Part shown: positions 35,100-52,583 of the stretch, piece by piece
How positions within the stretch are numbered: position 1 is the first letter of the stretch
Layout: the number at the start of each line of letters is the position of its first letter
DNA from: Streptomyces justiciae
GTDB lineage: Bacteria; Actinomycetota; Actinomycetes; Streptomycetales; Streptomycetaceae
Direction of reading: 5' to 3'
Length of the DNA stretch: 64,000 nt
NCBI RefSeq assembly: GCF_015163075.1
Contig: NZ_JADDXU010000002.1
Location: 248,001 to 312,000, forward strand
Made by a program: the position numbers and the translations under genes
The notes under the pieces: model-generated
What the model was told of the DNA's origin: nothing
The model's input: the letters and a program-made list of their open reading frames with translations, nothing else
Databases searched by the model: none

Positions 35100-35102
35100 A
35101 CC

Positions 35103-36236
35103 ATGCCGCGGATCGTCTGCGTCGCCGGGGCCCGCCCCAACTACATGAAGATCAAACCGGTGATGGACGCCCTGGAGCGCCGCGGCGCCGAGGTGCTCCT
35201 CGTCCACACCGGCCAGCACTACGACCCGGCCATGAACGACGTGTTCTTCGCCGACCTCGGCATCCGGCCGCCCGACCGCTTCCTCGGCGTCGGCTCCGGC
35301 AGCCACGCCGAGCAGACCGGACGCGTGATGACCGCGTTCGAGCCGCTGCTGGAGGAGGTCTCCCCGGACATCGTCGTCGTGGTCGGCGACATCAACTCCA
35401 CGCTCGCCTGCGCCCTGGTCACCGCCAAGGCGGGACCGCTGCTCGCGCATGTCGAGTCCGGGCTGCGCAGCCGGGACTGGAGCATGCCGGAGGAGGTCAA
35501 CCGGGTCGCCACCGACCGGGTCAGCGACTATCTGCTGGCCCCCTCCCCCGACGCCGTAGACAACCTGCGGGCGGAGGGGTACCGGGAGGACCAGATCCAT
35601 CTCGTCGGCAACGTCATGATCGACACGCTGCTGGCCAACCTGGAGCGGGCCCGCGCCTCCGACGTCCTGGACCGATTCGGCCTGACCCGGGGCGAGTTCG
35701 GCCTGGTGACCCTGCACCGCCCGGCCAACGTGGACGACCCCGAAGTGCTCGCGGGGCTCCTCAAGGCTCTCGGCGAGATCGCCGGCCGCTGCCCGCTGGT
35801 GCTGCCCGTGCATCCCCGCGCGGCCGGCAAGCTGGCCGAGCTCGGTGTTCCCGGTGGCATCCAACTCGTACCGCCTGCCGGGTACTTGGACTTCATCGCG
35901 TTGCAGGACGCGGCCCGTGTCGTACTCACGGACTCGGGCGGTGTGCAGGAGGAGACCACCGCACTCGGGGTGCCGTGTGTGACGCTGCGGGACAACACCG
36001 AGCGGCCCATCACCGTCGAGCAGGGCACCAATGTGCTGGCCGGGCGCGATCCCGCGCGGATCGTGGCCACCGTGAACGGCGTCCTGGACGCCCCGCCCGC
36101 ACCGCGCCGGCCCGAACTCTGGGACGGCAGGGCCAGCGAACGCATCGCCGAGGTGCTGGTGAAGGGAGGCTCCTCGAGCACCCGGCCGAGACCCACCGAT
36201 CAACCGAGACCCACGGACCGAACGCTCCCCATATGA
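35103..36236 (+). CDS. wecB: UDP-N-acetylglucosamine 2-epimerase (non-hydrolysing)
   Basis: A 377-aa WecB-type epimerase (GT-B fold) interconverting UDP-GlcNAc and UDP-ManNAc. Signatures: VAGARPNYMKIKPVMDAL, HTGQHYDPAMNDVFF, VESGLRSRDWSMPEEVNR, VTLHRPANVD, and LTDSGGVQEETTALGVPCVTLR with the UDP-contact residues. A paralogous subgroup (WbpI/WlbD) acts on the 2,3-diacetamido uronate; the neighbouring WlbB-like and oxidoreductase genes make that substrate possible. It directly follows the dehydrogenase gene. The C-terminal Pro/Thr tail (about 20 residues) is not conserved. Confidence 0.93.
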   Translation: MPRIVCVAGARPNYMKIKPVMDALERRGAEVLLVHTGQHYDPAMNDVFFADLGIRPPDRFLGVGSGSHAEQTGRVMTAFEPLLEEVSPDIVVVVGDINSTLACALVTAKAGPLLAHVESGLRSRDWSMPEEVNRVATDRVSDYLLAPSPDAVDNLRAEGYREDQIHLVGNVMIDTLLANLERARASDVLDRFGLTRGEFGLVTLHRPANVDDPEVLAGLLKALGEIAGRCPLVLPVHPRAAGKLAELGVPGGIQLVPPAGYLDFIALQDAARVVLTDSGGVQEETTALGVPCVTLRDNTERPITVEQGTNVLAGRDPARIVATVNGVLDAPPAPRRPELWDGRASERIAEVLVKGGSSSTRPRPTDQPRPTDRTLPI

Positions 36237-36284: not shown

Positions 36285-37118
36285 ATGGATCTCGCGGAGA
36301 TCTTCCGTGTCATGCGCAGGCGTTGGTACGTCCTGCTGCCGGGGCTGTTGCTGACCGCAGGCCTGGTCTTCGGTGTGACCCGGGTGGTTCACGTGACCTA
36401 CCAGTCGCAGAGCACGGTGGTGCTGCTGAACTCGCAGAAGGCGACGCTGGCTTACGACGGCAACCCCTTCCTCAGCACCCAGACCTCGCTCACCGGCATG
36501 GCCGACAGTCTGGCGCGCAACCTCAACTCCGACGACTCGCTCCGGGAGCTCAAGTCCCGTGGCGCGAAGGGGACGTTCGAGGCGAAGCTCGCCGACAACG
36601 CGCAGGGGCCGCTGCTCTGGCTGACCGTCACCGGCACCGACAAGGCGTCCGTCCTGTCCTCGGACAAGATCCTCACGGCCTACGCCAAGGAGCGGCTGGA
36701 GGAGTTCCAGCAGGACCAGTCGGTCGCCTCGAAGGCCATGATCCGCATGACGACGATCGTGGCCCCGCAGACCCCGGTGGCGCAGACCAAGACCCGGCTC
36801 GAGTACATGATCATGGCGGGCGGCGCGGGGCTGGTGCTCAGCCTGGTCGCCGTCTTCTACGTGGAGGCGCGCAGGCGGCCGCGGCAGCCCGACGCACCGG
36901 CGGAAGAAGAGCCGGAGTCCGCGATCGACGTGCCGGTCGTGGAGGAGACGCTCGCCATCCGCAGGCCGCCGAGCTGGTCGCAGTCCACCGGGAACGAGCG
37001 GACCGCCGCCCAGCCCGAAGAACCACGGCCCGTGATGGCCGGTGCATCCGCCGCAGAGCCGCGCGACGAGGAGTCGACCCATGGACATCGCCCGCGCACC
37101 GGACAGCGCGACCGGTGA
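36285..37118 (+). CDS. Wzz-like polysaccharide co-polymerase
   Basis: A 277-aa membrane protein of the chain-length determinant type. A short cytoplasmic start (MDLAEIFRVMRRRWYVLLPG) leads into TM1 (about 14-33). An extracytoplasmic domain (about 35-165) has the helical KILTAYAKERLEEFQQDQS region, then a proline-rich QTPVAQTKTR motif before TM2 (about 171-192), and an acidic cytoplasmic tail of about 80 residues. No Walker motifs occur, so it is not a BY-kinase fusion. ATG has AGGGGGG just upstream. It overlaps the flippase gene by 38 bp. It is one of three Wzz-like proteins in the cluster, and the N-terminus is closely similar to that of the Wzz-Wzy fusion. Confidence 0.85.
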   Translation: MDLAEIFRVMRRRWYVLLPGLLLTAGLVFGVTRVVHVTYQSQSTVVLLNSQKATLAYDGNPFLSTQTSLTGMADSLARNLNSDDSLRELKSRGAKGTFEAKLADNAQGPLLWLTVTGTDKASVLSSDKILTAYAKERLEEFQQDQSVASKAMIRMTTIVAPQTPVAQTKTRLEYMIMAGGAGLVLSLVAVFYVEARRRPRQPDAPAEEEPESAIDVPVVEETLAIRRPPSWSQSTGNERTAAQPEEPRPVMAGASAAEPRDEESTHGHRPRTGQRDR

Positions 37119-38631
37119 GACGAGCGACGCGCCGGCTCCCCCAGCTCCCTCCCTCGGCCGCAAGGTCCGTTCGGCGGCCCGCTGGAGCCTGATCAACACC
37201 GTCGTCCTGCGGCTGGGCAACTTCGCGACCGGTATCGTCCTGGCCCGCTTCGCCCTCGGCCCCGCCGAGTGGGGCGTGTACGGCATCGCCCAGACTGTGC
37301 TGCTGGTCCTGCTGTCCGCGAACGAACTGGGCGTGGGCCTGGCCATCGTGCGCTGGGAGGGCGACGCGCGCCGGTTCGCGCCGACCGTGCTGACCCTGAG
37401 CACCCTCTCCAGCGGTCTGCTGTACGTGGCCCTGTTCGCGTCCGCACCCACGGTGGCCGGTCTGCTGGACTCGCCGGACGCGACGGGCGTGCTGCGGGTG
37501 ATGTGCCTGTGCGTGCTCATCGACGGCGTGGCCCAGGTGCCGGGCGGCTTCCTCACCCGTGAGTTCGCCCAGGGCAAGCGGATGATCATCGACGGCCTCA
37601 ACTTCGTCGTCGCCACCGGCGTGACCCTGGCCCTGGCCTTCGCGGACTGGGGCGCGATGAGCTTCGCCGTGGGGGCCGTCGCCGGGAACGTGGTGACGCT
37701 CATCGGCTGCGCGCTGGCCGCGCCGGGCACCCTGAAGTACGGCTGGAACCCCGAACAGGCCCGGGCGCTCCTGCGGTTCGGGCTGCCGCTCGCCGGGGCG
37801 AGCATGCTGGCGCTCGCGGTCGTCAACGTCGACACCATGGTGGTCGGCGCGACACTGGGCAACATCTCGCTGGGTTTCTACGTGCTCGCCTTCAACATCT
37901 CCGGCTGGCCCGTGCGGATCATCTCCGAGGCCGCCCGCCGGGTCTCCTTCGCCGGCTTCTCCCGCCTCGCCGACTCACCACAGGCCCTCGCCCAGGGCTT
38001 CAGCCGCGCCCTCGGCGTCCTGATGACCGGCACCGTCCCGCTGTGCGTCCTGCTGGCCGGCCTCGCGGAACCCGTCATCCGGCTGATCTACGGCGACCAG
38101 TGGGCGCCCGCCGCCGCGGCCCTGCCGTGGCTGATGGCCCTCGGCCTGATCCGCATCGGCAGCGAACTCGCCTACGACTGTCTCGTCGCGGTCGGCCAGC
38201 GCCGCTCGCTCTTCCTGGTGCAGGGCCTGTGGCTGGTCGCCCTCATCCCCGTACTGCTCGTCGCCGCCCGTCTGAACGGCACCGCCGGGGTCGCCCAGGG
38301 CCATGTCCTGGTCGCCGGCGGCCTGGTGGCGCCCGTGTTCCTGATCGCCCTCGGCCGGGGCGGCATCGGCGTCGCCCTGATCGCCCGGGCCTGCGCGTGG
38401 CCCTTCCTCGGCGGGGCCGTCATGGCGGCGGTCATCCTCGGCCTGGAGCCCCGGCTCGGGGACGGCCGGCTCGCCCTTCTCGCCATCGGCACGATCGCCC
38501 TGGCCGGCTACACGGTGTGCGTCCTGCCCAGCCGCGGCTTCCTGCGCGGCGTCGACCCCGGCGACCGGCCCCACCGCGGCCGGCACCGGGCGACCGCACC
38601 GGTCCGGTCTCCCCAACAGGACTTGAGGTGA
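37081..38631 (+). CDS. Wzx-type polysaccharide flippase (MOP superfamily)
   Basis: A 516-aa integral membrane protein with about 12-14 helices and a polysaccharide-synthase/MATE-like pattern: RSAARWSLINTVVLRLGNFATG at the first helix and LPLAGASMLALAVVNVDTMVVG in the middle. Charged interhelical residues are typical of RfbX/TuaB proteins. It would flip the undecaprenyl-PP-linked repeat unit to the outer face. ATG 37081 has GAGGAG seven bases upstream and lies inside the Wzz-like gene (38-bp overlap). The lipoprotein gene starts within its stop (GTGA, 38628-38631). Confidence 0.9.
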   Translation: MDIARAPDSATGETSDAPAPPAPSLGRKVRSAARWSLINTVVLRLGNFATGIVLARFALGPAEWGVYGIAQTVLLVLLSANELGVGLAIVRWEGDARRFAPTVLTLSTLSSGLLYVALFASAPTVAGLLDSPDATGVLRVMCLCVLIDGVAQVPGGFLTREFAQGKRMIIDGLNFVVATGVTLALAFADWGAMSFAVGAVAGNVVTLIGCALAAPGTLKYGWNPEQARALLRFGLPLAGASMLALAVVNVDTMVVGATLGNISLGFYVLAFNISGWPVRIISEAARRVSFAGFSRLADSPQALAQGFSRALGVLMTGTVPLCVLLAGLAEPVIRLIYGDQWAPAAAALPWLMALGLIRIGSELAYDCLVAVGQRRSLFLVQGLWLVALIPVLLVAARLNGTAGVAQGHVLVAGGLVAPVFLIALGRGGIGVALIARACAWPFLGGAVMAAVILGLEPRLGDGRLALLAIGTIALAGYTVCVLPSRGFLRGVDPGDRPHRGRHRATAPVRSPQQDLR

Positions 38632-39755
38632 CCCGGATGTCACGGCCCACCAGCCGACGCTCACTCCAGGGGCTGCTGCTCGCGGCCTTACTGACGGTCG
38701 CGAGCGCGGCCTGCTCGGGATCGGACGAGCCCACGTCGGCGGGCTGCCCGAAAGACAGTCCGTCCTGCCGTACGAGCGCCTCCCCCACGGCGTCGAGCGC
38801 CACGCCCTCGGCCGAGATCGGCGAGGCGACGGGAACCCCGGCCGCCTCGTCGCCGCCGTCCTCCGCTTCCGCCTCCACCTCCGCGACACCCTCGGAGACA
38901 GGCTCCGGGACCGGCACGCCCGCGGCGCGGACCGGCTGCGCCTCCCCCGGCGCCTGCGGCTTCCCCGACGCCCGCACCACCGGCCCCCGCACCCGCCTGA
39001 CCCCCAAGAAGACCGGCTACAAGACCATCCGCACCGACGGCACGGTCATCCGGGGCCAGGACATCACCGGCTCCCTCGACATCTACGCGAACAACGTCAC
39101 CATCATCGACACCAAGATCACCTCGGACAGCTGGTGGGGCATCAACCTGCGCCCGGGCTTCAGCGGGCTGCGGGTCCTGCACTCCACCATCACCGCCGTA
39201 CCCGGCACCGGCCCGGACAACGGGGGTGTGGACTACGCGGTGTCGAACATGGGCGGCAGCTCCATCGAGGTCGGCTGGTGCAACATATCGGTGTTCGGGG
39301 ACGCCCTGTCCATGGGGCAGGGCAACATCCATGACAACTACGTCCACGACATCGAGCCGTTCGTGAACCTCGGCGGCGAGTGGCAGCACACCAACGCGGT
39401 GATCAGCGGCGGCGGCAACACCGGGCACCTCACCATCCGCCACAACACGCTGCTGAACGAGACCAGCCTCAAGCAGGGCGCCTCGGGCAGCATCGGCCTG
39501 TTCGCGGACGTCGGCGTGGTCCGCAACGTCACCGTCGACGACAACTGGATCGCCGGCGGCGCGTACGCCCTCTACGGCGGTTCCACGGGCGCCACGGGGA
39601 TCAAGGTCACCGACAACATCTTCTCGACGGAGTTCCATCCCGCCTCGGGCGGCTACGGCGTCGTCGCGCACTGGAACGAGAAGGGTGCGGGGAACGTGTG
39701 GCGCAACAACCGGCTGTCCGACGGCCGTCTGGTCACCCCGGAGCCCGCCTCGTGA
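38628..39755 (+). CDS. Right-handed beta-helix lipoprotein with a TTA codon
   Basis: A 375-aa surface lipoprotein. GTG 38628 overlaps the flippase stop and has AGGA six bases upstream. The signal has SRRSLQGLLLAALLTVASAAC, with the lipobox Cys at about residue 27. A 75-residue Ser/Thr/Ala/Pro linker follows, then a right-handed parallel beta-helix (about 120-370) with pectate-lyase-like rungs (DIYANNVTIIDTKITS; LRVLHSTITAVPG; LTIRHNTLLNETS; VTVDDNWIAGGAYALYGG). Such folds are lyases, hydrolases or epimerases of polysaccharides; no catalytic set can be assigned. Codon 21 (38688-38690) is TTA, the rare bldA-dependent leucine codon, so synthesis may be tied to development. Confidence 0.85.
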   Translation: MTRMSRPTSRRSLQGLLLAALLTVASAACSGSDEPTSAGCPKDSPSCRTSASPTASSATPSAEIGEATGTPAASSPPSSASASTSATPSETGSGTGTPAARTGCASPGACGFPDARTTGPRTRLTPKKTGYKTIRTDGTVIRGQDITGSLDIYANNVTIIDTKITSDSWWGINLRPGFSGLRVLHSTITAVPGTGPDNGGVDYAVSNMGGSSIEVGWCNISVFGDALSMGQGNIHDNYVHDIEPFVNLGGEWQHTNAVISGGGNTGHLTIRHNTLLNETSLKQGASGSIGLFADVGVVRNVTVDDNWIAGGAYALYGGSTGATGIKVTDNIFSTEFHPASGGYGVVAHWNEKGAGNVWRNNRLSDGRLVTPEPAS

Positions 39756-40537
39756 GGCGCGTCGCGCGGATGCCGTGGACGCTGCTCAAGGCGGTGTTCG
39801 GCTGGCTGGTGCTCTTCGAGGCCAGGAACAAGGTCCTGCTGGCGCCTTCCGCGGTGCGGCTGCGCCGGATCGAGGACGCCGAGGTGCGGCGGCTGTCGGC
39901 CGACCTGCCGTCACCGCCCTCCGCGCTGGTCGCCACCGTGATCGCCACCCACCGGCGCCCCGACGCCCTGCGCGCCGCCGTCCGCTCCGCCCTGGACCAG
40001 ACCGTGCGCGACCACGTCGTGATCGTGGTCGACGACGGCGCCGGACTCCCCGAACTCCCGGACGACCCACGGCTGTTCGCCGTCTCCCTGTCCCGCAACA
40101 CGGGCGTGGCCGGCGTCGTGCGCAACGTCGGCATCCGGCTCACGCGTTCGCGGTACGTCGCCTTCCTCGACGACGACAACCTGTGGGAACCCGACCATCT
40201 GGAACGCGCGTTGGCGGCCCTGGAGTCCGCCGACGCGCCCGCCGGCGTCTACACGGCACTGCGCCGCGTCCTGCCGGACGGCAGCGAGAAGGACATCCTG
40301 TCGGTCCCGTACGACCGACACCGCGCCGCCCGCGAATCCTTCCTCGACACCAACGCCTTCGTCGCCCGCCGCACCCGCTCCCTGCACTTCAGCCGCCTGC
40401 GCCGCACCCCGGAGGTGCTGCCCCGGGAGGACTGGGAGCTCATCCACCGGTACGCCCGACGACACCGGGTGCGCCATGTGCCGCACCCGACCGTGCGGTA
40501 CCTCGTGAACCCCGCCAGCTTCTACACGGACTGGTGA
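39752..40537 (+). CDS. GT2-family glycosyltransferase
   Basis: A 261-aa GT-A transferase. A short basic, hydrophobic N-terminus (TLLKAVFGWLVLFEARNKVL) probably anchors it to the membrane. The catalytic domain starts ALVATVIATHRRPDALRAAV, with nucleotide-binding Asp in VIVVDDGAG, the DxD-like FLDDDNLW and the acceptor region PREDWELIHRY. GTG 39752 overlaps the beta-helix lipoprotein stop (GTGA). It would add a sugar to the lipid-linked repeat unit; donor and acceptor are unknown. Confidence 0.9.
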   Translation: MRRVARMPWTLLKAVFGWLVLFEARNKVLLAPSAVRLRRIEDAEVRRLSADLPSPPSALVATVIATHRRPDALRAAVRSALDQTVRDHVVIVVDDGAGLPELPDDPRLFAVSLSRNTGVAGVVRNVGIRLTRSRYVAFLDDDNLWEPDHLERALAALESADAPAGVYTALRRVLPDGSEKDILSVPYDRHRAARESFLDTNAFVARRTRSLHFSRLRRTPEVLPREDWELIHRYARRHRVRHVPHPTVRYLVNPASFYTDW

Positions 40538-42298: not shown

Positions 42299-43198
42299 TC
42301 ACGGTCCTGGTGTCTTGTGCAGTGCACCCCGCCGGACCAAGGCTGCGGCCGCCGCTCTGCTCGCGGGACGGCCCAGTACCGCGCGGGAAGTTTCCCTGAG
42401 GAGGACCGCCGTACGGAAGGCTGTCGTCGACACGCGGCCGTGTCTACGACCGTACAGGCGGACCCGGTTCAGGGTGAGCAGTGTCCAGAGGCGAGGTGAT
42501 ACCTGGGAGTCGCCTCCCAGGTGTACCGCCTCTGCGCTGGGTTCCAGCTGGGTCACGTACCCCAAGCCCCTTGCCCGGAGGCAGAATTCCGTCTCCTCCG
42601 AGTAGAGGAAGAAGGACTCGTCCCACTTGCCGCACGCGGCCATGCACTCCCCGGAGATGGCCATCAGCGCGCCCGTCGCCCAATCCGCGCGCGTGGGACG
42701 CTCGTACGCGGCCGGGTCCGTGACCAGCTCGCTCAGGGCCGGGAAGCGGCCCGCGCGGGTGTTGCCGATGACCGCCTCGCCGAGTGCCCGGAGCACGGTC
42801 GACTCGCGGCGCAGGGAGCGATGAGGCGTGTCCCTGCCTTCCTCGTACAGCAGAGGTACGGCGATCCCGACACCGCCCCCGAGACTGTCCACCAGGCGTT
42901 TGGCGCAGCCCTGCCGCATCCGGACGTCGGGGTTGCAGATGAGGGCGACCCCGTACTCCCCCGCCGCGTCCAGCGCCGCGTTGATCCCGGCCGCGTACCC
43001 GGCGTTGCGGCCCGTCTGGACCACCGTCGCCTCGGGGGCGAGGGTCCGGAGCACCTCCACCGTGTCGTCGGCCGAGTCGTTGTCGGCGACCACCAGCCGC
43101 CAGTCGAGCCCCGCCATGCCGTCGGGCAGTGCGGCGAGGAACCCGGGGAGCACCGCGGCGCTGTTCCAGGTGACGACGATGACGGCGACGGTGCTCAT
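42299..43198 (-). CDS. GT2-family glycosyltransferase (rhamnosyltransferase-like)
   Basis: A 299-aa GT-A enzyme of the WbbL/RfbF-like group. The N-terminus VAVIVVTWNSAAVLPGFLAAL, nucleotide-binding VVADNDSADDTVEVL, metal-site region ALICNPDVRM and the typical WDESFFLYSEETEFCLRARG segment with GYVTQLEPSAEAVHLGG are all present. Members often transfer rhamnose, but the donor here is not known. The ATG overlaps the stop of the Wzz-Wzy fusion gene (ATGA, 43195-43198). It is the last gene of the minus-strand arm. Confidence 0.92.
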   Translation of the reverse strand: MSTVAVIVVTWNSAAVLPGFLAALPDGMAGLDWRLVVADNDSADDTVEVLRTLAPEATVVQTGRNAGYAAGINAALDAAGEYGVALICNPDVRMRQGCAKRLVDSLGGGVGIAVPLLYEEGRDTPHRSLRRESTVLRALGEAVIGNTRAGRFPALSELVTDPAAYERPTRADWATGALMAISGECMAACGKWDESFFLYSEETEFCLRARGLGYVTQLEPSAEAVHLGGDSQVSPRLWTLLTLNRVRLYGRRHGRVSTTAFRTAVLLRETSRAVLGRPASRAAAAALVRRGALHKTPGP

Positions 43199-45222
43199 CG
43201 GGACTCCACGAGTTGGGGGAGCTTGGTTTCGGTCGGCGTACGCGGGACGGGCACTTCGAGGACCGCCTTCGCCTCGCGGCGCACGAAGCCCAGATAGCTG
43301 CCGCCCGCCCCCAGGACCAGGAAGAACATCCCCGCGTACATCGGGAAGCTCAGCGCGTCGAAGGTGGCGCTGATGACCAGGGCGACCAGGGCCGAGGCGA
43401 GGAAGGCCTGGCCGAGTTCGCGGTCGGACTCGGTGCGGGCGAGGCGGCGGATGGCGCCGCCGGTGTGCATCCCGGTGATGAAGAGGGCGAACAGAGCGAT
43501 CAGGCCCAGGATGCCCATCTCGGCGAGGGTGAGCATGTACTGGTTGTCCGTGAAGAAGTAGAGGTCCGGGGTGAAGGTGCCGAAGCCCCTGCCGAACCAA
43601 GGGTGTTCGTCGAAGTACGGCACGATCGCGCTGTACTTCACCGTGCGGGCCTGCGTGCTGCTGTCGGAGTTGGACAGGAAGCTGGCGAACAGGTTGGTGA
43701 TCGTTCCGATGAGGCCCGGGATGATCACCTTGAAGCCGGCCACCGAGCCCAGGATCAGCCCGATCGCGGCCCAGCGACGCTGCGGCTTCCAGCGGGGCAC
43801 CATCACCAGGATGACGATGAAGGCACCGATGATGGACGTCCGCGACACCGTCAGCGGAAGGGCGCCCGCCATGATGGCCACCGGCGCCCAGCGGCGCCAC
43901 GCGCGCACGTGTCGTCGTACCGGATCGAAGGCCTGGTGCACGGCGAAGGGGACCAGGATGGCCAGCATGCCGCCGAACTCCAGGGGGTGGGCGGTGGTGG
44001 AGCGGGGCCGGGTGAAGGAGCCGCGGTCCATCGCACTGATCCCGGCGGTGCTGGACTGGAGGCCGGGGATGTGGATGGAGTCGGCGATGTTGGTGGCGGC
44101 GAAGAAGTCGTAGTAGCCGATCAGCGCGACGACCGTGCCCATGACGACGAGGCGGCGCATCAGGGTCTCCAGGCGGCTGCGTTCCTGGATGCCTGCCGAG
44201 GCCAGCACCACCAGCGCCACCCAGACCCCGAGTCCGATGAGTCCGCGGTCGGCGCCGAGGACCTCCTCGTGGGTGCTCTCCCGGGTCGCGTTCGCGAGGT
44301 AGGAGAGGAGTACGGCCGCGGCGAGCAGGCACATCACCACACGCACCAGCCTCGTGCCCCGGGCGGGCAGGATGCGGCCGCCGAGCCAGGTCGCGAGGTA
44401 CCAGAGGAGGCCGAGGAGGGCGAAGACGTTGGCCGGCGTACCGACGCCGCCCAGCGCGGGCAGGGTGAGGTTCGAGGGGACGAAGAAGGCCAGGGCCAGA
44501 TAGCCGGTGAGGATCGTCGTGGCGTCCAGGCGCCGGGCCAGCAGGCCCTTGGGGCGCTCGGGGGGACTGGCCCGGTGGCGCCGGGGGACGTATCCAGGCT
44601 GGGCGCGGCCTCGGCGGCGTACCACCGCGACGCCCTCGGCCAGGATGGACAGCAGGAACGCCGCGACCATGCCGACGATGACGACCGCCGCGATGTTCTG
44701 GTAGCGGCTCTTGGGCTGCGAGACCGGCGTCTGGGGCAGCACGACCGGCGCGGTCTGCACCGCGTACACCGACGGCACCTTGGAGGCGGCCTGCAGGGCC
44801 TTCAGCTGCTCGCCGGTGAACTTGGTGAGGGTGGTGGTCTCACGGAGCACCTTGGCCCGGTCGGTGCCGGTGACGCTCAGGGTGAGCAGCGGGCTGTCGG
44901 CGTTGGGGGCGAAGCCGACGGTGTAGCGGTCCGTGACGCCGCGGGAGTGCAGTTCCTTGGCCGAGTCGCTCGACTGCAACGTCCTGATCAGCACGTCGGC
45001 GGTGACGACCAGTGAACCTCCGGCGTTCGACAGGGGGTTGCCGAAGGTGGGTGCCAGTTCGGCGATCGCCGAGGAGTCGAGCAGGGTGACGGAGCTCTGC
45101 GACTCGTAGGACACCGGGACGGTTCGGAAGAGGTAGCCGCCGGCGAGGATGCTGAGCAGGGTCAGTGGCACCATGCAGTACCAGCGCCTGCGCATGATCG
45201 CCAGGATGTCACCGAGGCTCAT
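43195..45222 (-). CDS. Wzz-like co-polymerase fused to Wzy/O-antigen-ligase-type polymerase
   Basis: A 675-aa membrane protein with two units in one frame. Residues 1-200 form a Wzz-like co-polymerase: MSLGDILAIMRRRWYCMVPL, TM1 (about 17-33), an extracytoplasmic domain with KFTGEQLKALQAASK, the proline motif LPQTPVSQPKSRYQN, and TM2 (about 177-201). After a basic linker (RRRGRAQPGYVPRRHRASPP), residues about 235-650 hold some ten helices of the Wzy/O-antigen ligase family. Its large loop carries STTAHPLEFGGMLAIL, and EHPWFGRGFGTFTPD with DNQYMLTLAEMG is the conserved polymerase signature. This would couple chain growth to length control. Start: GGAGGGAGG before ATG 45222. Confidence 0.9.
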   Translation of the reverse strand: MSLGDILAIMRRRWYCMVPLTLLSILAGGYLFRTVPVSYESQSSVTLLDSSAIAELAPTFGNPLSNAGGSLVVTADVLIRTLQSSDSAKELHSRGVTDRYTVGFAPNADSPLLTLSVTGTDRAKVLRETTTLTKFTGEQLKALQAASKVPSVYAVQTAPVVLPQTPVSQPKSRYQNIAAVVIVGMVAAFLLSILAEGVAVVRRRGRAQPGYVPRRHRASPPERPKGLLARRLDATTILTGYLALAFFVPSNLTLPALGGVGTPANVFALLGLLWYLATWLGGRILPARGTRLVRVVMCLLAAAVLLSYLANATRESTHEEVLGADRGLIGLGVWVALVVLASAGIQERSRLETLMRRLVVMGTVVALIGYYDFFAATNIADSIHIPGLQSSTAGISAMDRGSFTRPRSTTAHPLEFGGMLAILVPFAVHQAFDPVRRHVRAWRRWAPVAIMAGALPLTVSRTSIIGAFIVILVMVPRWKPQRRWAAIGLILGSVAGFKVIIPGLIGTITNLFASFLSNSDSSTQARTVKYSAIVPYFDEHPWFGRGFGTFTPDLYFFTDNQYMLTLAEMGILGLIALFALFITGMHTGGAIRRLARTESDRELGQAFLASALVALVISATFDALSFPMYAGMFFLVLGAGGSYLGFVRREAKAVLEVPVPRTPTETKLPQLVESR

Positions 45223-45311
45223 GATCCCTCCCTCCGCGGCAACCCATGTGATTCGGTGGCGACTTGCCCCGGTTGATGCGAGTATCGCTGGCGACGGAAG
45301 GAATCCCCGCT

Positions 45312-45983
45312 GTGTCGCCTCGTGAGGTCGCCGAAGCGCTGCTGCGCCGCTGGTACGTGCTGGTGTTCGCGCTCGTGCTGACGGCCGCCGGAGCGTACCA
45401 AGTGCTGCATCCCGCCCCGCAGTTCCTCAGTTCGGCGGTGGTCGTCCTCAAGCCGCCGGTCACGGGGAACCAGCCGAACCAGCTGACGAACCTCCAACCG
45501 CCGCTCGCCACCCTGTCGTACGGCGTCGTCCAGCAGCTGGAGTCGCCCGCCGGGCGCAGGGAGCTTCAGGCCGCCGGTGTCCACGGGTCGTACCAGCTGA
45601 TCCCGCGCAACAGCGGCACCAGCGCCACGCCCCGCTATCTCATCCCCTCGCTCCAGGTGCAGGTGAAGGGCGCGAGCGCCGAGGCGGCGAACACCGCGGT
45701 CAGCCGGGTCATCGACGTCTACTCCCGGCATGTCACCGAGTTGCAGGACGCCGAGGGCATCGCGGCCGGGTCGCGGATCAACGCGTCCGTCCTGGTGGCG
45801 CCCAGCGCGGCCCCGGTGCAGGGCACACGGACCCGCGCCCTGGCGGGTACGGCGCTGCTCGGGGGCATCGGCGGCATGCTGGCCACGCTGTGGTTCGACC
45901 AGTACGCGCTGCGCCGCAGGAGCCGGAAGGACGGCTCCCCGGAGCCGCAGCGGCCCGTCGAGGAGCTTGCGGTGGCGGGCTGA
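45312..45983 (+). CDS. Wzz-like protein, short cytoplasmic tail
   Basis: A 223-aa protein transcribed against its neighbours. GTG 45312 was chosen (AAGGAA eight bases upstream), giving MSPREVAEALLRRWYVLVFA with TM1 at about 14-31. The extracytoplasmic domain (about 32-185) includes FLSSAVVVLKPPVTG and SRHVTELQDAEG. TM2 is at about 192-207 and the tail is short and basic. It lacks the clear proline motif of Wzz, so it may be a degenerate co-polymerase or a partner of the Wzz-Wzy fusion, whose gene is divergent across an 89-bp gap. An ATG at 45276 is in frame. The only plus-strand gene inside the minus arm. Confidence 0.75.
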   Translation: MSPREVAEALLRRWYVLVFALVLTAAGAYQVLHPAPQFLSSAVVVLKPPVTGNQPNQLTNLQPPLATLSYGVVQQLESPAGRRELQAAGVHGSYQLIPRNSGTSATPRYLIPSLQVQVKGASAEAANTAVSRVIDVYSRHVTELQDAEGIAAGSRINASVLVAPSAAPVQGTRTRALAGTALLGGIGGMLATLWFDQYALRRRSRKDGSPEPQRPVEELAVAG

Positions 45984-45997
45984 GTGGTTCACGGGCA

Positions 45998-47044
45998 TCA
46001 GATTCCGCGGCGCTTCCAGGACTCCCACCACAGCCACTCCCGCCCGCGTTCGGCCACGGCCGACCACACCAGCGGCTGGAGGTACGGCATCGCCTTCGGC
46101 CCGATCCTTCTGCGCAGCCGCAGGGCGCGGTACTCGGGCAGCGCCTGGTAGCCCGGCAGGCACTCCGCGGCGAACGACACGCACTCGTCGACCGGTACGA
46201 CACCGGTGCGGCCCCGGTCGTAGGCGCGGTAGGCGCGGCGCAGCGCGTAGCGGGCGAGGCGGGTGTGGACCTGGTCGGCGAGTCGGTCGGCGTGCGGGAG
46301 CCGGTCGCCGCACTTGGCGAGCACCGAGTCGTAGGCGATCAGGCGCTGGCGCAGGTCGTCGAGCTGGCCGCCGAAGTCGGTCGTCGACATGTTGTTGCCG
46401 TGGACGCGGTAGAAGGCCTGGTCGGCGCCGCGGATGTAGCCGACGTCGGCGTGGGCGGCGAGCCGCATCCACATCTCGATGTCGCCGGCGTGCGGAAGGG
46501 CCGGGTCGTAGCCGCCGACCTTGCGCTGGAGGTCGGTGCGGACGACAACCTCGGGCGAGGTGATGCAGCCGGTGCCCTCCCTGAAGCGCCGCTCCAGCCA
46601 CCACTGGCCGGGATAGACGACCGAACCCGTGCTCTGGGTACGGGCCTTGGGCAGCGGGCCGCCGTGCTGGAAGCGCAGCGGGCGCCCGTAGGCGAAGCCG
46701 GCCTCGGGGTGGGCGTCCAGGAGCGCGGCGGCCCGGGCCAGGGCGCCCGGGACGAGCCGGTCGTCGGCGGAGAGCAGGGCCACGTAGTCGCTGTCGGCCC
46801 ACTCCAGCAGGCCCTCGTTGTACGTGGCGATGTGGCCCTTGTTCGTCTCGTGGACGTGCACCTCGATCCGCGGGTCGGAGGCGGCCAGCCTGCGGGCGGC
46901 CTCCGCCGAGTCGTCCGGCGAGGCGTCGTCGATGATGAGCACCCGGAGGTCGACGCCGGGGTTCTCGTCCAGGACGCTGCTCACGCAGTCGGCGAGGAAA
47001 TGGCCGTACTTGAAGCACGGGATGACAACACTCACGCTGCTCAT
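45998..47044 (-). CDS. GT2-family glycosyltransferase
   Basis: A 348-aa GT-A transferase. VSVVIPCFKYGHFLADCVSS opens the fold. VLIIDDASPDDSAEAARRL binds the nucleotide, ALLSADDRLVPGALARA carries the DxD-like metal site, and PHAGDIEMWMRLAAHADVGY the acceptor-side acidic motif. A helical C-terminal extension (about 250-348) ends EWLWWESWKRRGI, amphipathic and probably membrane-associated. Its stop is 14 bp from the convergent Wzz-like stop. No strong ribosome site precedes ATG 47044. Donor unknown. Confidence 0.9.
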   Translation of the reverse strand: MSSVSVVIPCFKYGHFLADCVSSVLDENPGVDLRVLIIDDASPDDSAEAARRLAASDPRIEVHVHETNKGHIATYNEGLLEWADSDYVALLSADDRLVPGALARAAALLDAHPEAGFAYGRPLRFQHGGPLPKARTQSTGSVVYPGQWWLERRFREGTGCITSPEVVVRTDLQRKVGGYDPALPHAGDIEMWMRLAAHADVGYIRGADQAFYRVHGNNMSTTDFGGQLDDLRQRLIAYDSVLAKCGDRLPHADRLADQVHTRLARYALRRAYRAYDRGRTGVVPVDECVSFAAECLPGYQALPEYRALRLRRRIGPKAMPYLQPLVWSAVAERGREWLWWESWKRRGI

Positions 47045-47119: not shown

Positions 47120-50100
47120 TCAGTTCTTCTTCTTGCGGACGGTCTTGCTGGTCAGGGTCCAACTGTGGGACTTCACCTTCGTGTGGTGCTTGTCCTCAGC
47201 AATGACCCTGACCTTGAACCTCGTTCCGTCCGGCAAAGGACCGGTCAGATGGACGGACACCTTGTGCGTGGCACGGTTGTAGGAGACGACCGCCGTGACA
47301 TGCAGCTTCTTGGCGGCCTTGGTGCCCTTGACGATGGTGAGGTCCGCGTCGACGTCCGTCACCTTGAGCTTGTCGGAGACGGTCATGACGAGGGGGTGCT
47401 TCGCGTCGGCGGTGTAGGTCACCGTGGACGCGCCCGCCTCCGAGGCCGTCTCCGCCGCCAGGGACCCGCTGGGGTCGGTGGCGGTGAAGACCGGGCCGAC
47501 CCAGTAGTTCGCCGAGCCGTAGGAGCCGGTCGGGAAGGCCGAGTCCGCGCCGTACTTGTAGAGCCCGTTGTGGTGGGCCGTGGTGTCGGCGGTGCCGGTC
47601 AGCGGATAGGACTGATGGGCCGAGGCGAAGTAGCCGCCGTCGACCGCGTAGTGGCCGTTGGGTGCGTGGTAGGAGACGACGTACGCCGTGTCAGCGGTGA
47701 CCGCCACCGGGGTGGCGAAGGTCAGCGTCTGCCAGCCGGTCGCCGTCTCGTTGGTGAAGGTGCCGCTGGCCAGCAGCGTCCCGGAGTCGGTCCACAGGCT
47801 GCCGGTGTGGGTGCCGGTGTTGCCGGTGCCCTTGTAGAAGGTGACGCCGGTGATCCAGCCGGCCGCCGAGGACGTGAACCGGGTGCCCAGCTCCACGGAG
47901 TTGGGGTCGGCGGTCATGTCGGTGGTGGCCGGCACCGCGGAGGAACTCCACAGCGTGCAGGGGCAGGTGACCGCGGGCGGGGTGGCGCTGGTGGTGAAGG
48001 ACCAGGTCACCGGGTCCGCCATGGCGTTGCCCCACACGTCGGAGGCCTGGACCGTGGCCGTGTACTTGGTGTGCAGCGACAGCTCGGTCGACGGGGTGAA
48101 CGTCGCCTTGTTCGCCGCGGGCAGTGTCACCGCTCCCGGCACGGTGTTGCCGTCCGGGTCCTTCAGCGTGAACGTCAGGTTGTCGGAGTCGACGGACGCG
48201 CTGAACACGGCCGACACCGACGCGGTGATCGCGGTGTCGGTCGCCCCGGAGGTCGGGGAGGTGGAGGTGACGGTGGGCGGGGTGGTGCTGGCCGTCGAGG
48301 TGTCCAGGACCACGTCGACCCAGTAGTTGCTGCCGGAGGCCGCCGAGGTCGGGAAGGCGCTCGTCGAGGTGTAGCGGTAGACGCCGTTGCCGCCGTCGGT
48401 GCCGGACTTCAGTGCCGTCAGCGGCGCGAGACCGGCGTCGCTGCCCGCGAAGGTCGTGTCGTAGGAGTAGCCGCCGTTGGGCGCGAAGTACGAGGCGACA
48501 TAGGTGGTGTTGGCCTTCACGGTGACCGGGGTGGCGAAGTTCAGCTGCTGCCAGCCGGACGCCGACTCGCCCGTGAAGGTGCCCGTGGCGAGCAGTTTGC
48601 CGTCCTTCGTCCACAGGTTGCCCGTGTGGGTGCCGGTGTTGTAGGGCGACTTGTAGAAGCGGACGCCGGTGATCGAACCGGCCACCGTGGTACGGAACTT
48701 GACGCCGAGCTCGACCGAGCCGCCGTCGCCCGCGTTGACGGTGCCGGGCACGGCCGTGGCCGGCCAGACGGTGCACGGGCAGGCCTGCGGCCCGACCGTG
48801 ATCGGGATCGTGGTGACGGCACCGATGTTGACGCTGTCGTCGACCGCGCGGACCTTGATGGAGGCCGAGCCCGGGGTCGTCGGGGTCCAGCTGTAACTCC
48901 AGGAGCCGAGCCCGGTCGCGGCTTGCCAGGTCGTGCCGCCGTCCGTGGACACCTCCACGCGGGCGACCACACCACCGGAGTCGGTGGCGGTGCCCTTGAC
49001 GGTGACCGGCTTCAGCGCGGGCACGGTGACCCCTGAGGCGGGGCTGGACACGGTGATCGTGGGGCCGGTGGTGTCGGTGGACTTGGTCGCGGCGACGAGA
49101 TTGCTCTGCCGCGTCAGCGGCTGGACGCCCATGTCCGCGAAGAGGTTCACCGTCGCCTGCTGCATGCGGACGTCCTCGGTGACGACCTGGTCCTCCGGGT
49201 TGTACGTCGGCAGGTTCGTCAGACCCCACGACCACTGCACGGTCCCCGCGCCGAAGACCAGGGCGCCGGAGTCCTGGTCACGGAAGGCCACGAGGCTGTG
49301 CTTCGCGGTGCCGTTGCCGTAGGTGTTGCCCCAGTCCATGCGCAGCTTGCCGTCGTTGATGTCCACGGTCGTGGACGACAGGTCGATCGCGCCCGCGGGT
49401 CTGGTGGCGTTGTCGATGTCGCTGTCCCACTCGTAGCCGAGGGTGCCCTCCGGGAAGGTCGCCGTCTGGCTGGAGGTGAGGTTGGCGATGGAGGTGTTGC
49501 GCCACAGCCGGTTCTTGCCGTACGAGCCGGGGACGGTGATCGCGTCGGCGCGGTAGCCGTTCACCGTGAACATGGAGCCGGTGAGGATGTTCGGCGGCTG
49601 GTAGGACTGCCCGTACTGGGTGCTGGTCGGGTCCATCCAGGTGCCGGTCCACTGGCCGCTGGGGTCGGCGACGCCGTTGTTCTGCGCCATCTTGGTCATC
49701 TTGTAGCAGACCAGGGTGCGGTTGGCGGTGTTCGCGCCGTCGATGCTCGGCGTCAGGCGGGTCTTCCAGAAGACCTCGTTGCCGCTGAAGTAGCCCTGCT
49801 GCACACCGGCCTTCCGGGCGGCGAGGACCTTGGAGTACTGGTCCTGCGTCCAGTACTCGTCATGCCCGGAGGACAGGTACACCTTGTGGTTCGTCAGCAG
49901 GGTCTCGCCGCGGGTCGACACGTCCACGCCGGACAGGTAGCTGACGTCGTAGCCGTTGCGCTCCAGCCAGGCCAGCATCATGTACTCGGAGCCGTAGATG
50001 CCGTTGTCGCCGCCGATGTCCAGCGGCCGGTTGTAACTGACCTCGTAGGCACGGCCGTCGGGCGCGGGCCCGGCACCGCCGTACAGGTCCTGGCCGCCGT

Positions 50101-50713
50101 AGTCGTTGTACGCCTGCCAGGTCTGGTCGCTGGTCTGGACGACGATGTCGGAGGTGCTGGAGTCCTTGCGGACGACGAACGGGTAGGGCATCAGACCGTC
50201 GCCGTCGGTCTGGGTGAGGTTGGCGATGTACAGCCCGGACACGGCGTCGCTGGGCACGGTCCAGCTCGCGGTCACGGGCCAGTTGCCGCAGTCGACCAGG
50301 CCGGTGCTGGCCTTGGTGGTGCAACCCGCCGGGTTGGACGTGTAGTTGGCGGGATAGGTCGTCGCTGCCTGCGCCGCCGTCGACATCAGACGGGCGCCGT
50401 CACCGCCGTACCAGCCGAGCCGGTAGATCTCGATGCGGTACGAGGTCTTCGACTGGATCTTGAACTGGACGGTGTCCCCGGCCTGGACGCTCTCCTTGGT
50501 GGTGAACCCCTTGATGTCACCGTAGGAGTTGGGCGAGTACCAGTCCGTCGACGGGCTGCCCGCCTTGGAGTTCTCGCAGACGATCGGATTCGAGCCCGAC
50601 CCGCACGGATCGGCTGCCGCCTGGGCGGTTCCGGCCTGTGGGAGCACCGCCCATATCAATGCTGCTGCGACGGCCAGGCGCACGCCCTGGAGCCGTCTGC
50701 TCCATCTGTTCAT
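47120..50713 (-). CDS. Large secreted N,N-dimethylformamidase-beta-like protein with Ig-like and DUF4082 domains
   Basis: A 1197-aa exported protein. Signal peptide 1-33 (LAVAAALIWAVLPQAGTAQA). Residues about 40-520 resemble the large-subunit fold of N,N-dimethylformamidase: RLGWYGGDGARLM, YNRPLDIGGDNGIYGSEYMM, and the conserved VYLSSGHDEYWTQDQY with FFSGNEVFWK-like context (YFSGNEVFWKTRL). Then come a bacterial Ig domain (about 545-640), two DUF4082 modules (CPCTVWPATAVPG and CPCTLWSSSAVPA, each with GVRFYK/GVTFYK and GTHTG), an SbsA-type Ig domain between them, and a Lys-rich end (TSKTVRKKKN). Substrate unknown; placement in the polysaccharide cluster suggests binding or processing of the polymer. 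Confidence 0.85.
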   Translation of the reverse strand: MNRWSRRLQGVRLAVAAALIWAVLPQAGTAQAAADPCGSGSNPIVCENSKAGSPSTDWYSPNSYGDIKGFTTKESVQAGDTVQFKIQSKTSYRIEIYRLGWYGGDGARLMSTAAQAATTYPANYTSNPAGCTTKASTGLVDCGNWPVTASWTVPSDAVSGLYIANLTQTDGDGLMPYPFVVRKDSSTSDIVVQTSDQTWQAYNDYGGQDLYGGAGPAPDGRAYEVSYNRPLDIGGDNGIYGSEYMMLAWLERNGYDVSYLSGVDVSTRGETLLTNHKVYLSSGHDEYWTQDQYSKVLAARKAGVQQGYFSGNEVFWKTRLTPSIDGANTANRTLVCYKMTKMAQNNGVADPSGQWTGTWMDPTSTQYGQSYQPPNILTGSMFTVNGYRADAITVPGSYGKNRLWRNTSIANLTSSQTATFPEGTLGYEWDSDIDNATRPAGAIDLSSTTVDINDGKLRMDWGNTYGNGTAKHSLVAFRDQDSGALVFGAGTVQWSWGLTNLPTYNPEDQVVTEDVRMQQATVNLFADMGVQPLTRQSNLVAATKSTDTTGPTITVSSPASGVTVPALKPVTVKGTATDSGGVVARVEVSTDGGTTWQAATGLGSWSYSWTPTTPGSASIKVRAVDDSVNIGAVTTIPITVGPQACPCTVWPATAVPGTVNAGDGGSVELGVKFRTTVAGSITGVRFYKSPYNTGTHTGNLWTKDGKLLATGTFTGESASGWQQLNFATPVTVKANTTYVASYFAPNGGYSYDTTFAGSDAGLAPLTALKSGTDGGNGVYRYTSTSAFPTSAASGSNYWVDVVLDTSTASTTPPTVTSTSPTSGATDTAITASVSAVFSASVDSDNLTFTLKDPDGNTVPGAVTLPAANKATFTPSTELSLHTKYTATVQASDVWGNAMADPVTWSFTTSATPPAVTCPCTLWSSSAVPATTDMTADPNSVELGTRFTSSAAGWITGVTFYKGTGNTGTHTGSLWTDSGTLLASGTFTNETATGWQTLTFATPVAVTADTAYVVSYHAPNGHYAVDGGYFASAHQSYPLTGTADTTAHHNGLYKYGADSAFPTGSYGSANYWVGPVFTATDPSGSLAAETASEAGASTVTYTADAKHPLVMTVSDKLKVTDVDADLTIVKGTKAAKKLHVTAVVSYNRATHKVSVHLTGPLPDGTRFKVRVIAEDKHHTKVKSHSWTLTSKTVRKKKN

Positions 50714-50775: not shown

Positions 50776-51897
50776 TCAGCCGGCGAGCGCGTCGGTGAGC
50801 GTGTCGACGACGCGTTGCTGCTGGTCGGGGGTGATCTGCGGGTACAGCGGCAGCGACAGGATGCGATCCGCCGCCTTCTCTGCGTTGGGGAAGTCGCCGC
50901 GCTCGTGGCCGAGTTGGGCGTATGCCGGGGTGAGGTGGACGGGGGCCGGGTAGTGCACCCCGGCGCCGATGCCCTCGGCGTTGAGCTTGCCGACGAGGGC
51001 ATCGCGGTCGGCGTCGGTGACCTGGACGACGTACAGGTGCCAGACGTGGACGTTGCCGGGTGCCGTCACCGGCCGCACGATCCGACCGGCGGTCGCCAGG
51101 TCGGCGAGCAGTTCGTCGTAGCGGGCCGCGGCCGCCCGGCGGGCCGCGTTGCCGTCCGCGAGCCGCTTGAGCTTGGCGCGCAGGACGACGGCCTGGAGTC
51201 CGTCGAGGCGGCTGTTGAACCCGGGTACGTCGTGGCGGTACTTGGCGACGCCGCCGTGGTTGGCGATGGCCCGCACCAGGTCTGCGGCCGCCTCGTCGTC
51301 GGTGAGCACGGCGCCCGCGTCGCCGTAGGCGCCCAGGTTCTTGCCGGGGTAGAAGCTGGTGGCCGCGATGCCGCCGCTGCCGGGTGTACGGCCGTCGCGG
51401 CTGGCGCCCTGGCACTGGGCGGCGTCCTCCACGACCTTCACGTGGTCGGGCAGTTGCGCCCTGAGGGCCGCCACCTCGGCCATCTGGCCGTACAGATGGA
51501 CCGGCACGACGGCCCGGGTCGCGGGACCGACGGCGGACAACGCGGCCTGGGGGTCGAGGAGATGACTGTCGGGCAGGCAGTCCGCGAGGACGGGACGGGC
51601 GCCGATCCTGGCGACCGCGCCGGCGGTGGCGATGAAGGTGTTGGCGGGCACGACGACCTCGTCGCCGGGCCGTACCCCGCCGGCGCGCAGGGCGAGTTCG
51701 ACGGCGTCGGTGCCGTTGGCGACGCCCACGACATGGCCGACCCGGCCGAAGTCGGCGTACTCCCGCTCGAACCGGCGCACCTCGTCGCCGCCGACGAACG
51801 CGGTCTGGGCGAGGACCCGTTCGAAGCCGGCCCGCACCTCCTCGGCGACCTCTTCGTGGGCCGCCTTCAGGTCCACGAGCGGAATCTGGTTGTTCAC
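50776..51897 (-). CDS. DegT/DnrJ/EryC1/StrS-family sugar aminotransferase (first)
   Basis: A 373-aa PLP enzyme transaminating a keto-sugar nucleotide, usually from glutamate. It begins IPLVDLKAAHEEVAEEVRAG and has GVANGTDAVELALRAGG for PLP phosphate, VVEDAAQCQGA for the PLP-ring Asp, and the Schiff-base Lys in SFYPGKNLGAYGDAGA. NSRLDGLQAVVLRAKL is the dimer-contact region. This subgroup includes 3-aminotransferases (WlbE/WbpE, FdtB/DesV types), fitting the WlbB-like acetyltransferase of the other arm. The GTG overlaps the preceding stop (GTGA, 51894-51897). Confidence 0.93.
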   Translation of the reverse strand: MNNQIPLVDLKAAHEEVAEEVRAGFERVLAQTAFVGGDEVRRFEREYADFGRVGHVVGVANGTDAVELALRAGGVRPGDEVVVPANTFIATAGAVARIGARPVLADCLPDSHLLDPQAALSAVGPATRAVVPVHLYGQMAEVAALRAQLPDHVKVVEDAAQCQGASRDGRTPGSGGIAATSFYPGKNLGAYGDAGAVLTDDEAAADLVRAIANHGGVAKYRHDVPGFNSRLDGLQAVVLRAKLKRLADGNAARRAAAARYDELLADLATAGRIVRPVTAPGNVHVWHLYVVQVTDADRDALVGKLNAEGIGAGVHYPAPVHLTPAYAQLGHERGDFPNAEKAADRILSLPLYPQITPDQQQRVVDTLTDALAG

Positions 51898-52583
51898 GTG
51901 GCCGGTCCCCCCATAGTTCGCGTCACAAGTTCTGCCAGCGCCGGAGCGCCCGCCTCGCGCAGCCGCCGGGCCGGGCTCCCCACCCAGACCTCGCCCGGCG
52001 GTACGTCGCCGAGCACGCCGCTGCCCATCCCGATCTGCGACCAGGCGCCGATCGTGGTGCCTTCCCTGACCAGGGCGCCGGAGCCGACATAGGCGCCGCG
52101 CTCCAGCCGTACTCCCCCACCGAGCCGGACGCCCGCGGTGAGCGTCGCGAAGTCCTCGATCACGTCGTCGTGGGTGAGGACGACGTGCGGCATCACCGAG
52201 ACATGCGCGCCGACCCGCACCGCGGCGGTCAGGACGCAGTGCGCGAGGAGCACCGAACCGGGGCCGATCACCGAGCTGCCGGACACCACGGCCGTCGGGT
52301 GGACGACGGTGGCGTACCGCTCCTCGGGCAGGTCGAACCGGCGGACCAGTCGGGCGCGGGCCGCGTAGTCCCGCGGGTTGCCGATGCACACCACGACCCG
52401 GGCCTCGGACAGGTCGTGGACCAGGTCGCTCCCGCCCAGCACGGGGACACCGTCCACCTCGGTGCCGTGCAGGGCCGGGTTGTCGTCGAGGTGTCCGAGC
52501 AGCTCGAACTCGCCCGCGTCCCGCACGGCCTGTGCGGTCTCCCGGGCGAAGCCACCGGCGCCGACGATCACAAGTCCGGTCAT
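51894..52583 (-). CDS. NeuD/PglD-family sugar O/N-acetyltransferase
   Basis: A 229-aa acetyltransferase with an N-terminal Rossmann-like nucleotide-sugar domain (GLVIVGAGGFARETAQAVRD) and a C-terminal left-handed beta-helix (about 95-210). The catalytic-type His is in SVMPHVVLTHDDVIEDFATL, and the end is GEVWVGSPARRLREAG. Related PglD acetylates the 4-amino group of a UDP-4-amino-sugar made by the PglE aminotransferase. The neighbouring aminotransferase at 52580-53719 is of that general type, so a 4-acetamido sugar is plausible. ATGA overlaps link it to the gene before it. Confidence 0.9.
   Translation of the reverse strand: MTGLVIVGAGGFARETAQAVRDAGEFELLGHLDDNPALHGTEVDGVPVLGGSDLVHDLSEARVVVCIGNPRDYAARARLVRRFDLPEERYATVVHPTAVVSGSSVIGPGSVLLAHCVLTAAVRVGAHVSVMPHVVLTHDDVIEDFATLTAGVRLGGGVRLERGAYVGSGALVREGTTIGAWSQIGMGSGVLGDVPPGEVWVGSPARRLREAGAPALAELVTRTMGGPAT

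Follow-up and report, generated by a model that had tools for sequence, protein, structure and literature searches.

A polysaccharide co-polymerase-like unit and a putative Wzy polymerase in one reading frame of Streptomyces justiciae

Background

The closest described counterpart of the gene treated here is the Gram-negative WzzE-WzyE pair, for which Weckener et al. (PMC10030265) give about eight copies of the polysaccharide co-polymerase (PCP) WzzE per WzyE polymerase, with WzyE inside the ring and the second transmembrane helix (TM2) of WzzE facing it. The same authors name the helices and a "motif 1" as the only structurally conserved parts between WzzE and Wzc. In the literature consulted, the control of Wzy by a PCP, both its ratio and its contact site, rests on a low-resolution view of this one complex. 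Here we describe a gene of Streptomyces justiciae in which a PCP-like unit and a Wzy_C domain are joined; it lies at 43195-45222, minus strand, of a 64,000-nucleotide stretch of DNA (contig NZ_JADDXU010000002.1, positions 248,001 to 312,000), which we call the window.

An earlier note on this DNA had called the contact between chain-length regulator and polymerase debated, a view that is dated, since fluorescence resonance energy transfer, co-purification and low-resolution electron microscopy show contact between WzzE and WzyE (PMC10030265). No published report of a natural PCP-Wzy (Wzz-Wzy) fusion was found in the excerpts of the open-licence literature matches listed, among which related work comprises two reviews (PMC12004945, PMC12212991), a study of Wzy modelling (PMC12502699) and two further papers (PMC12419801, PMC4594306). 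The reading that we favour is that the fused protein is probably the polymerase of a Wzx/Wzy-dependent surface heteropolysaccharide, its tethered PCP being one subunit of a cage that free PCPs complete.

Results

The fused gene and its domains

The fusion is a single open reading frame (ORF) of 675 aa that runs on the minus strand from an ATG at 45222 to a stop codon at 43195-43197, while the plus strand of the same interval holds a shadow frame only. On inspection of the sequence, a Shine-Dalgarno-like GGAGGGAGGG lies ahead of the ATG (45223-45240, minus strand), and all 31 loci of the window's family (f1) share the aligned position of the start codon. Three parts can be told apart on the minus strand: a PCP-like unit (residues 1-200, 44623-45222), a variable basic linker (residues 201-232, 44527-44622) and a polytopic domain of Wzy_C or WaaL type (residues 233-650, 43273-44526). 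The linker was described as basic in the earlier note, and with 11 lysines or arginines against one aspartate or glutamate it clearly is. The Wzy_C family (PF04932) matches residues 448-578 at 7.7e-18 and 65.1 bits, well over its curated cut-off of 31.7. The Wzz family (PF02706) reaches 17.5 bits on residues 2-86, under its cut-off of 25.5, so that the identity of the N-domain is, from sequence alone, suggestive at most. Pfam gave no tyrosine kinase in the fused ORF. A search of the 10.45-Mb genome gave no second fused copy; its one further match is a free paralog at 36285-37118.

Across 28 aligned fusions the linker varies from 26 to 46 aa and both flanking domains are conserved. Crude median ratios of nonsynonymous to synonymous substitution (dN/dS), which are rough because many pairs have diverged, are 0.42 for the PCP, 0.83 for the linker, 0.28 for the Wzy domain and 0.83 for the C-terminal tail. 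The linker and tail are thus the fastest-changing stretches of the fusion, and the comparison indicates that the PCP and Wzy domains are both under constraint.

Distribution of the fusion

Both domains stand in one frame in 31 of 31 surveyed loci of the window's family, the window's own included, and in 76 of 76 loci of a pattern scan; with the 18 proteins common to both sets counted once, this makes 89 distinct fusion loci. Conservation over so many loci rules out a sequencing or assembly artefact, the error that the earlier note had named as a threat to its claim of PCP and Wzy in one ORF, and the claim itself stands, with the gene on the minus strand. Because both patterns of the scan derive from fused sequences and the 76 loci come from the 80 best of 89 stretches, it is biased towards close relatives. 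Its loci belong to Streptomyces, Streptacidiphilus and Actinacidiphila, together with two records named only Actinobacteria or Actinomycetes. The BLAST matches of one ORF cover the whole protein in 74 of the 76; L126 was intact when inspected, and L130 alone has a frame break, which lies within the Wzy part, away from the junction. As 18 of the 31 fusions of the window's family are identical to pattern-scan fusions, this family was taken to be Streptomycetaceae.

Surveys of the order, class and phylum scored few candidates per genome, and weak matches can be missed in them. The order survey matched 41 of 293 genomes: 28 belong to the window's family and are all fused, and 13 to a sister family (f3), all with separate PCP and Wzy matches. 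The class survey matched 80 of 345 genomes; three were of the window's family, and of the other 77 we examined 65, the remaining 12 being nine whose matches are weak or incomplete and three (G392, G482 and G629) in which Wzy matches strongly. Near-duplicate loci L145 and L154 had been dropped from the 65-genome set. Among these 65 genomes the PCP gene lies directly upstream of a separate Wzy gene in 59 and downstream in two, the remaining four carry a fusion in the opposite order (Wzy-PCP), and none has the PCP-Wzy order. At phylum level 26 of 396 genomes matched, and the loci fetched from other classes (7/7) were separate. With separate genes in 61 of 65 genomes beyond the window's family, the fusion is not the actinobacterial norm, and the suggestion that it may define an actinobacterial polymerase class gives way to a narrower statement: in the genomes surveyed, the PCP-Wzy order is seen only in Streptomycetaceae. 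Apparent one-frame matches in G546, G466, G448, G619, G444 and Nonomuraea were rejected as in-frame neighbours with an intervening stop. The Nonomuraea record (NZ_LT559118.1, L248; 11.85 Mb), in which PCP and Wzy are in frame with a stop between them, is labelled a plasmid yet is the size of a chromosome.

Predicted folds

In the full-length model (mean predicted local distance difference test score, pLDDT, 60.8) the N-domain consists of two long helices, residues 14-34 and 170-206, flanking an alpha/beta unit, with an extracytoplasmic alpha/beta part of about 135 residues between them. Comparison of model residues 1-200 by VIA-align gave KpsE at Z 10.4, Wzc at Z 9.6 (root-mean-square deviation 3.4 over 173 residues) and WzzB and FepE at 8.7 each; the PCP rows stand only modestly above a background in which unrelated proteins, HMG-CoA reductase among them, score up to Z 8. 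The KpsE, Wzc and WzzB alignments span helices and core together. Foldseek E-values for the N-domain were weak (3.6e-3 to 4.5e-2), the full-length model gave nothing at E <= 0.001, and sequence searches brought up no credible solved relatives. By predicted fold, residues 1-200 look like a two-helix PCP unit.

The unit fits neither of two established classes. The roughly 135 residues between its helices compare with 208-255 in the listed solved Wzz/FepE periplasmic chains, and the long helical periplasmic extension that makes the tall barrel of PCP-1 is lacking. Nor was a fused or neighbouring tyrosine kinase, the mark of PCP-2 (Wzc/CpsC-CpsD), found: the ORF has none, and TIGR01007, as a sign of a kinase timer, had no match over its cut-off in the genome and none on the window's contig. 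The fold comparison thus points to a minimal PCP core, about the unit conserved between WzzE and Wzc. The earlier note's "complete co-polymerase" has to be qualified accordingly.

Modelled alone, the Wzy part reached pLDDT 66.7 and a predicted template modelling score of 0.73. It matched the O-antigen ligase WaaL (7tpg) with a Foldseek E-value of 5.8e-8 and Z 22.9 over 321 residues, followed by FtsW and RodA at Z 12.5-16.3. The predicted C-domain is of the WaaL/SEDS-type membrane fold. Wzy and WaaL have the same fold. No chain named Wzy was present among the 50 listed matches in each of the Foldseek and Z-score structure comparisons.

Free co-polymerases A and B

Two free PCP genes lie near the fusion, both on the plus strand. 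PCP A (36285-37118, 277 aa) is the free paralog, 43% identical to the fused N-domain; against PF02706 (cut-off 25.5) it scores 23.1 bits as a protein and 26.5 in the genome search. PCP B (45264-45983, 239 aa, start codon uncertain) is divergent from the fusion and has a sub-cut-off PF02706 match of 15.3 bits.

All 31 fusion-bearing genomes found in the surveys of the window's family also have A (28 from the order survey and three further), and in the pattern scan it lies within the fetched flank at 67 of 76 loci. Eight of the nine remaining genomes have full A matches, two of them through a TGA, and the ninth, a fragmented assembly, has a contig-edge fragment, so that with the overlap removed A is present in 88 of 89 fusion genomes plus one fragment. 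A is still kept in G012, where it and the fusion lie 3.3 Mb apart on contig C1 (at 3.95 and 7.27 Mb). No surveyed genome of the window's family matched without the fusion, and 33 genomes of the same genus in which all candidates were scored gave no match, neither fusion nor A. A homolog of B is found at 76 of 76 pattern-scan loci by best BLAST label; under stricter filters A is found at 66 and B at 74 of the 76. Mean pairwise identity over 63 genomes is 73.8% for A against 70.3% for the fused PCP, a similar degree of conservation. No C-terminal tail motif common to A and the sister-family PCPs was obvious by eye. Since A occurs in fusion-bearing genomes and B adjoins the fusion, the ratio of PCP to Wzy can exceed 1:1; the fixed 1:1 ratio proposed in the earlier note is not supported, and the ratio measured for WzzE and WzyE is about 8:1 (PMC10030265).

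Origin of the fusion and fusions in the opposite order

In the 12 sister-family loci read in detail, the Wzy gene has a GTG start 4-14 nt past the PCP stop in ten, the exceptions being a 1-nt overlap in L006 and an ambiguous spacing in L013. Trees were built by quick searches with 14 of 46 fused rows, duplicate loci being left out, and have long branches. All 14 fused rows of the Wzy tree group in a single clade (SH-aLRT 100), which lies within a background of separate genes. The PCP tree unites the sister-family neighbour PCPs, the fused PCPs and A in one clade (99), within which fused PCPs (100) and A (99) are distinct subclades, and places B elsewhere. These trees indicate that the PCP-Wzy fusion of the window's family has a single origin, from a separate, tightly spaced PCP-Wzy gene pair; the simplest history would be that the neighbour PCP was duplicated, one copy was fused to Wzy and the other was retained.

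The opposite order was found in three genomes of one genus (L144 in G481, L156 in G559 and L164 in G608), with Wzy followed by PCP in one ORF and PCP scores of 127-132 bits on a wide profile; G338, a fourth member of this genus, is unfused. L138 (G376), from another family, has the Wzy-PCP order too (71 bits); it is labelled "sep" in the Wzy tree because its C-terminal PCP was recognised later. A free PCP lies directly upstream of each Wzy-PCP locus except that of G559, where the contig ends. L138 stands apart from the other three in the Wzy tree and the intervening forks are weak, so that the opposite order may have had one or two origins. The survey for the two-domain architecture that the earlier note had proposed thus yielded 89 PCP-Wzy loci and four reverse-order genomes. 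In L190 (G427) and L192 (G377) the PCP gene is downstream of Wzy, and their Wzy domains pair on a long tree stem.

The surrounding cluster

The fusion lies in a polysaccharide cluster of about 33.0 to 57.3 kb that includes three family 2 glycosyltransferases and methyltransferases, and no other Wzy_C match lies in the window. On the plus strand, Pfam matches identify a WecG/TagA-type glycosyltransferase, a UDP-sugar dehydrogenase and a UDP-GlcNAc 2-epimerase (33016-36236), followed by a Wzx-type flippase (Polysacc_synt_3, 37042-38631, 2e-53) and a family 2 glycosyltransferase (39755-40537). The other two family 2 glycosyltransferases (42299-43183 and 45998-47044, likewise by Pfam) are on the minus strand, as are two DegT aminotransferases, a PglD/hexapeptide acyltransferase and an NAD-dependent epimerase (50776-54726) and an initiating sugar-phosphate transferase (Bac_transf, 55814-57253, 4.7e-64).

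The cluster also contains a 1197-aa protein with DMFA2_C, DUF4082 and Ig-like domains (47120-50713, minus strand) and an apparent secreted protein with a Ser/Thr-rich stretch (38622-39755, plus strand) that has no Pfam match at 0.001. A 388-aa protein at the cluster edge (31907-33073, plus strand) lacks both a Pfam match at 0.001 and any predicted membrane segment. A possible Wzy_C protein (L055:14181-15404; 27.6 bits, sub-cut-off) lies further along the contig, 7 kb outside the window and about 14 kb from the last gene of the cluster. Contig C2 of G000 has a further polysaccharide locus (about 52978-55698; L051, L053 and L201), where Wzy_C matches separately and a single 535-aa frame apparently combines a Wzz match with a kinase match under the cut-off.

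Discussion

The reading of the C-domain as a polymerase rests on its being the sole Wzy_C protein found in a cluster with an initiating transferase, a flippase and glycosyltransferases. Both ends of the PCP unit, and likewise the beginning of the Wzy part, would be cytoplasmic, and the basic linker would then run from PCP helix 2 directly into the polymerase. Helix 2 would correspond to the helix that faces the membrane cavity holding Wzy in the WzzE-WzyE complex, and since the linker leaves its end, the tether would give each Wzy its own first PCP subunit. Free A, and perhaps also B, would fill the remaining cage positions. Such local assembly would be expected to increase processivity and the recruitment of the cage to Wzy, and a ruler of the volume type is unlikely given the short extracytoplasmic part.

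We tentatively extend this to a "seeded cage", a proposal to which we give somewhat less than an even chance. The polymerase would bear one PCP, free paralogs would have to complete a mixed ring, and the supply of free relative to fused PCP would set chain length, an arrangement reached from both ends, as PCP-Wzy in Streptomycetaceae and as Wzy-PCP in two other genera. Streptomycetaceae fuse the neighbour-type PCP and keep a free duplicate, and the Wzy-PCP genera keep a neighbouring free PCP.

Several points weigh against the favoured reading. What is known of the fusion protein comes from its sequence and predicted structure, its N-domain stays under the Pfam Wzz cut-off, the models are of moderate quality (pLDDT 60.8 for the whole, 66.7 for the Wzy part) and of monomers only, and among solved structures the Wzy part matches a ligase best rather than a polymerase. 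Distance correlation gives A no clear lead over B (partial correlations 0.65 and 0.64), and the retention of A could reflect an unrelated role. In addition, the ratio of 8:1 was measured on Gram-negative proteins, and the authors left their function in the native organism unconfirmed (PMC10030265).

The strongest competitor, to our mind possible but unlikely, is that the fusion is nearly neutral, a stop codon having been lost between tightly spaced genes with function as in the two-gene state. In its favour, ten of the 12 sister-family loci have 4-14 nt between the genes, nine of 62 upstream PCP neighbours in other actinobacteria already share the frame of Wzy, and the linker, with a dN/dS of 0.83, is nearly unconstrained. 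However, a duplicate free PCP was fixed alongside the fusion, a fusion of opposite order arose elsewhere, and no locus among the 76 of the pattern scan has been split again, though the patterns of that scan came from fused sequences. The C-domain might instead act as a ligase or transferase and pass completed polymer on to an acceptor, as its match to WaaL at Z 22.9 could suggest; we think this improbable, since the cluster yielded no second Wzy_C protein and, of 65 loci from other actinobacterial genomes, 62 have the homolog immediately after a PCP gene.

About equally improbable is a working assembly made of fused subunits alone, with PCP and Wzy fixed at 1:1. The single frame at all 31 and all 76 loci (89 distinct) is what it would lead one to expect, but fusion-bearing genomes keep A and all 76 pattern-scan loci keep B, and an octamer of fused subunits would need room for eight polymerases in place of the one in the known cavity (PMC10030265). 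Separate PCP and Wzy proteins, produced by an internal start or by proteolysis, seem very unlikely. The window gene has a GTG near residue 201 with an upstream GAGG, and 19 of 31 fused genes have an ATG, or a start with a Shine-Dalgarno match of at least four bases, in this region, but the other 12 have neither.

The fusion is of wider interest as a natural tether that places one PCP covalently beside one Wzy, and the two fusion orders together limit which termini lie close. As Rosetta-stone evidence it supports the functional coupling of PCP and Wzy_C domains that the earlier note had claimed. Together with free A it offers a natural test of ring composition and chain-length control in a Gram-positive organism.

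Comparison with known systems

In predicted fold the C-domain resembles the O-antigen ligase WaaL and the SEDS proteins FtsW and RodA; WaaL is a ligase and FtsW and RodA are peptidoglycan polymerases, and none of them is known to have an attached PCP domain. The N-domain shares with the PCP-2a protein Wzc and the PCP-3 protein KpsE a core fold of two membrane helices around an alpha/beta unit, but Wzc bears a kinase domain, KpsE serves an ATP-binding cassette exporter, and neither is joined to a polymerase. The wps clusters of Actinoplanes, as described in PMC13390465, are likewise actinobacterial Wzx/Wzy systems with an O-antigen-ligase-like Wzy and a Wzz, but there the genes are separate and Wzz is longer, its annotated domains reaching residues 420-496. 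WzzE and WzyE (PMC10030265) differ from the fusion in being two proteins at about 8:1 and in the tall periplasmic domain of WzzE, which the fused PCP does not have; they are like it in that PCP and Wzy are held physically together, with TM2 of the PCP towards Wzy, in a Wzx/Wzy pathway.

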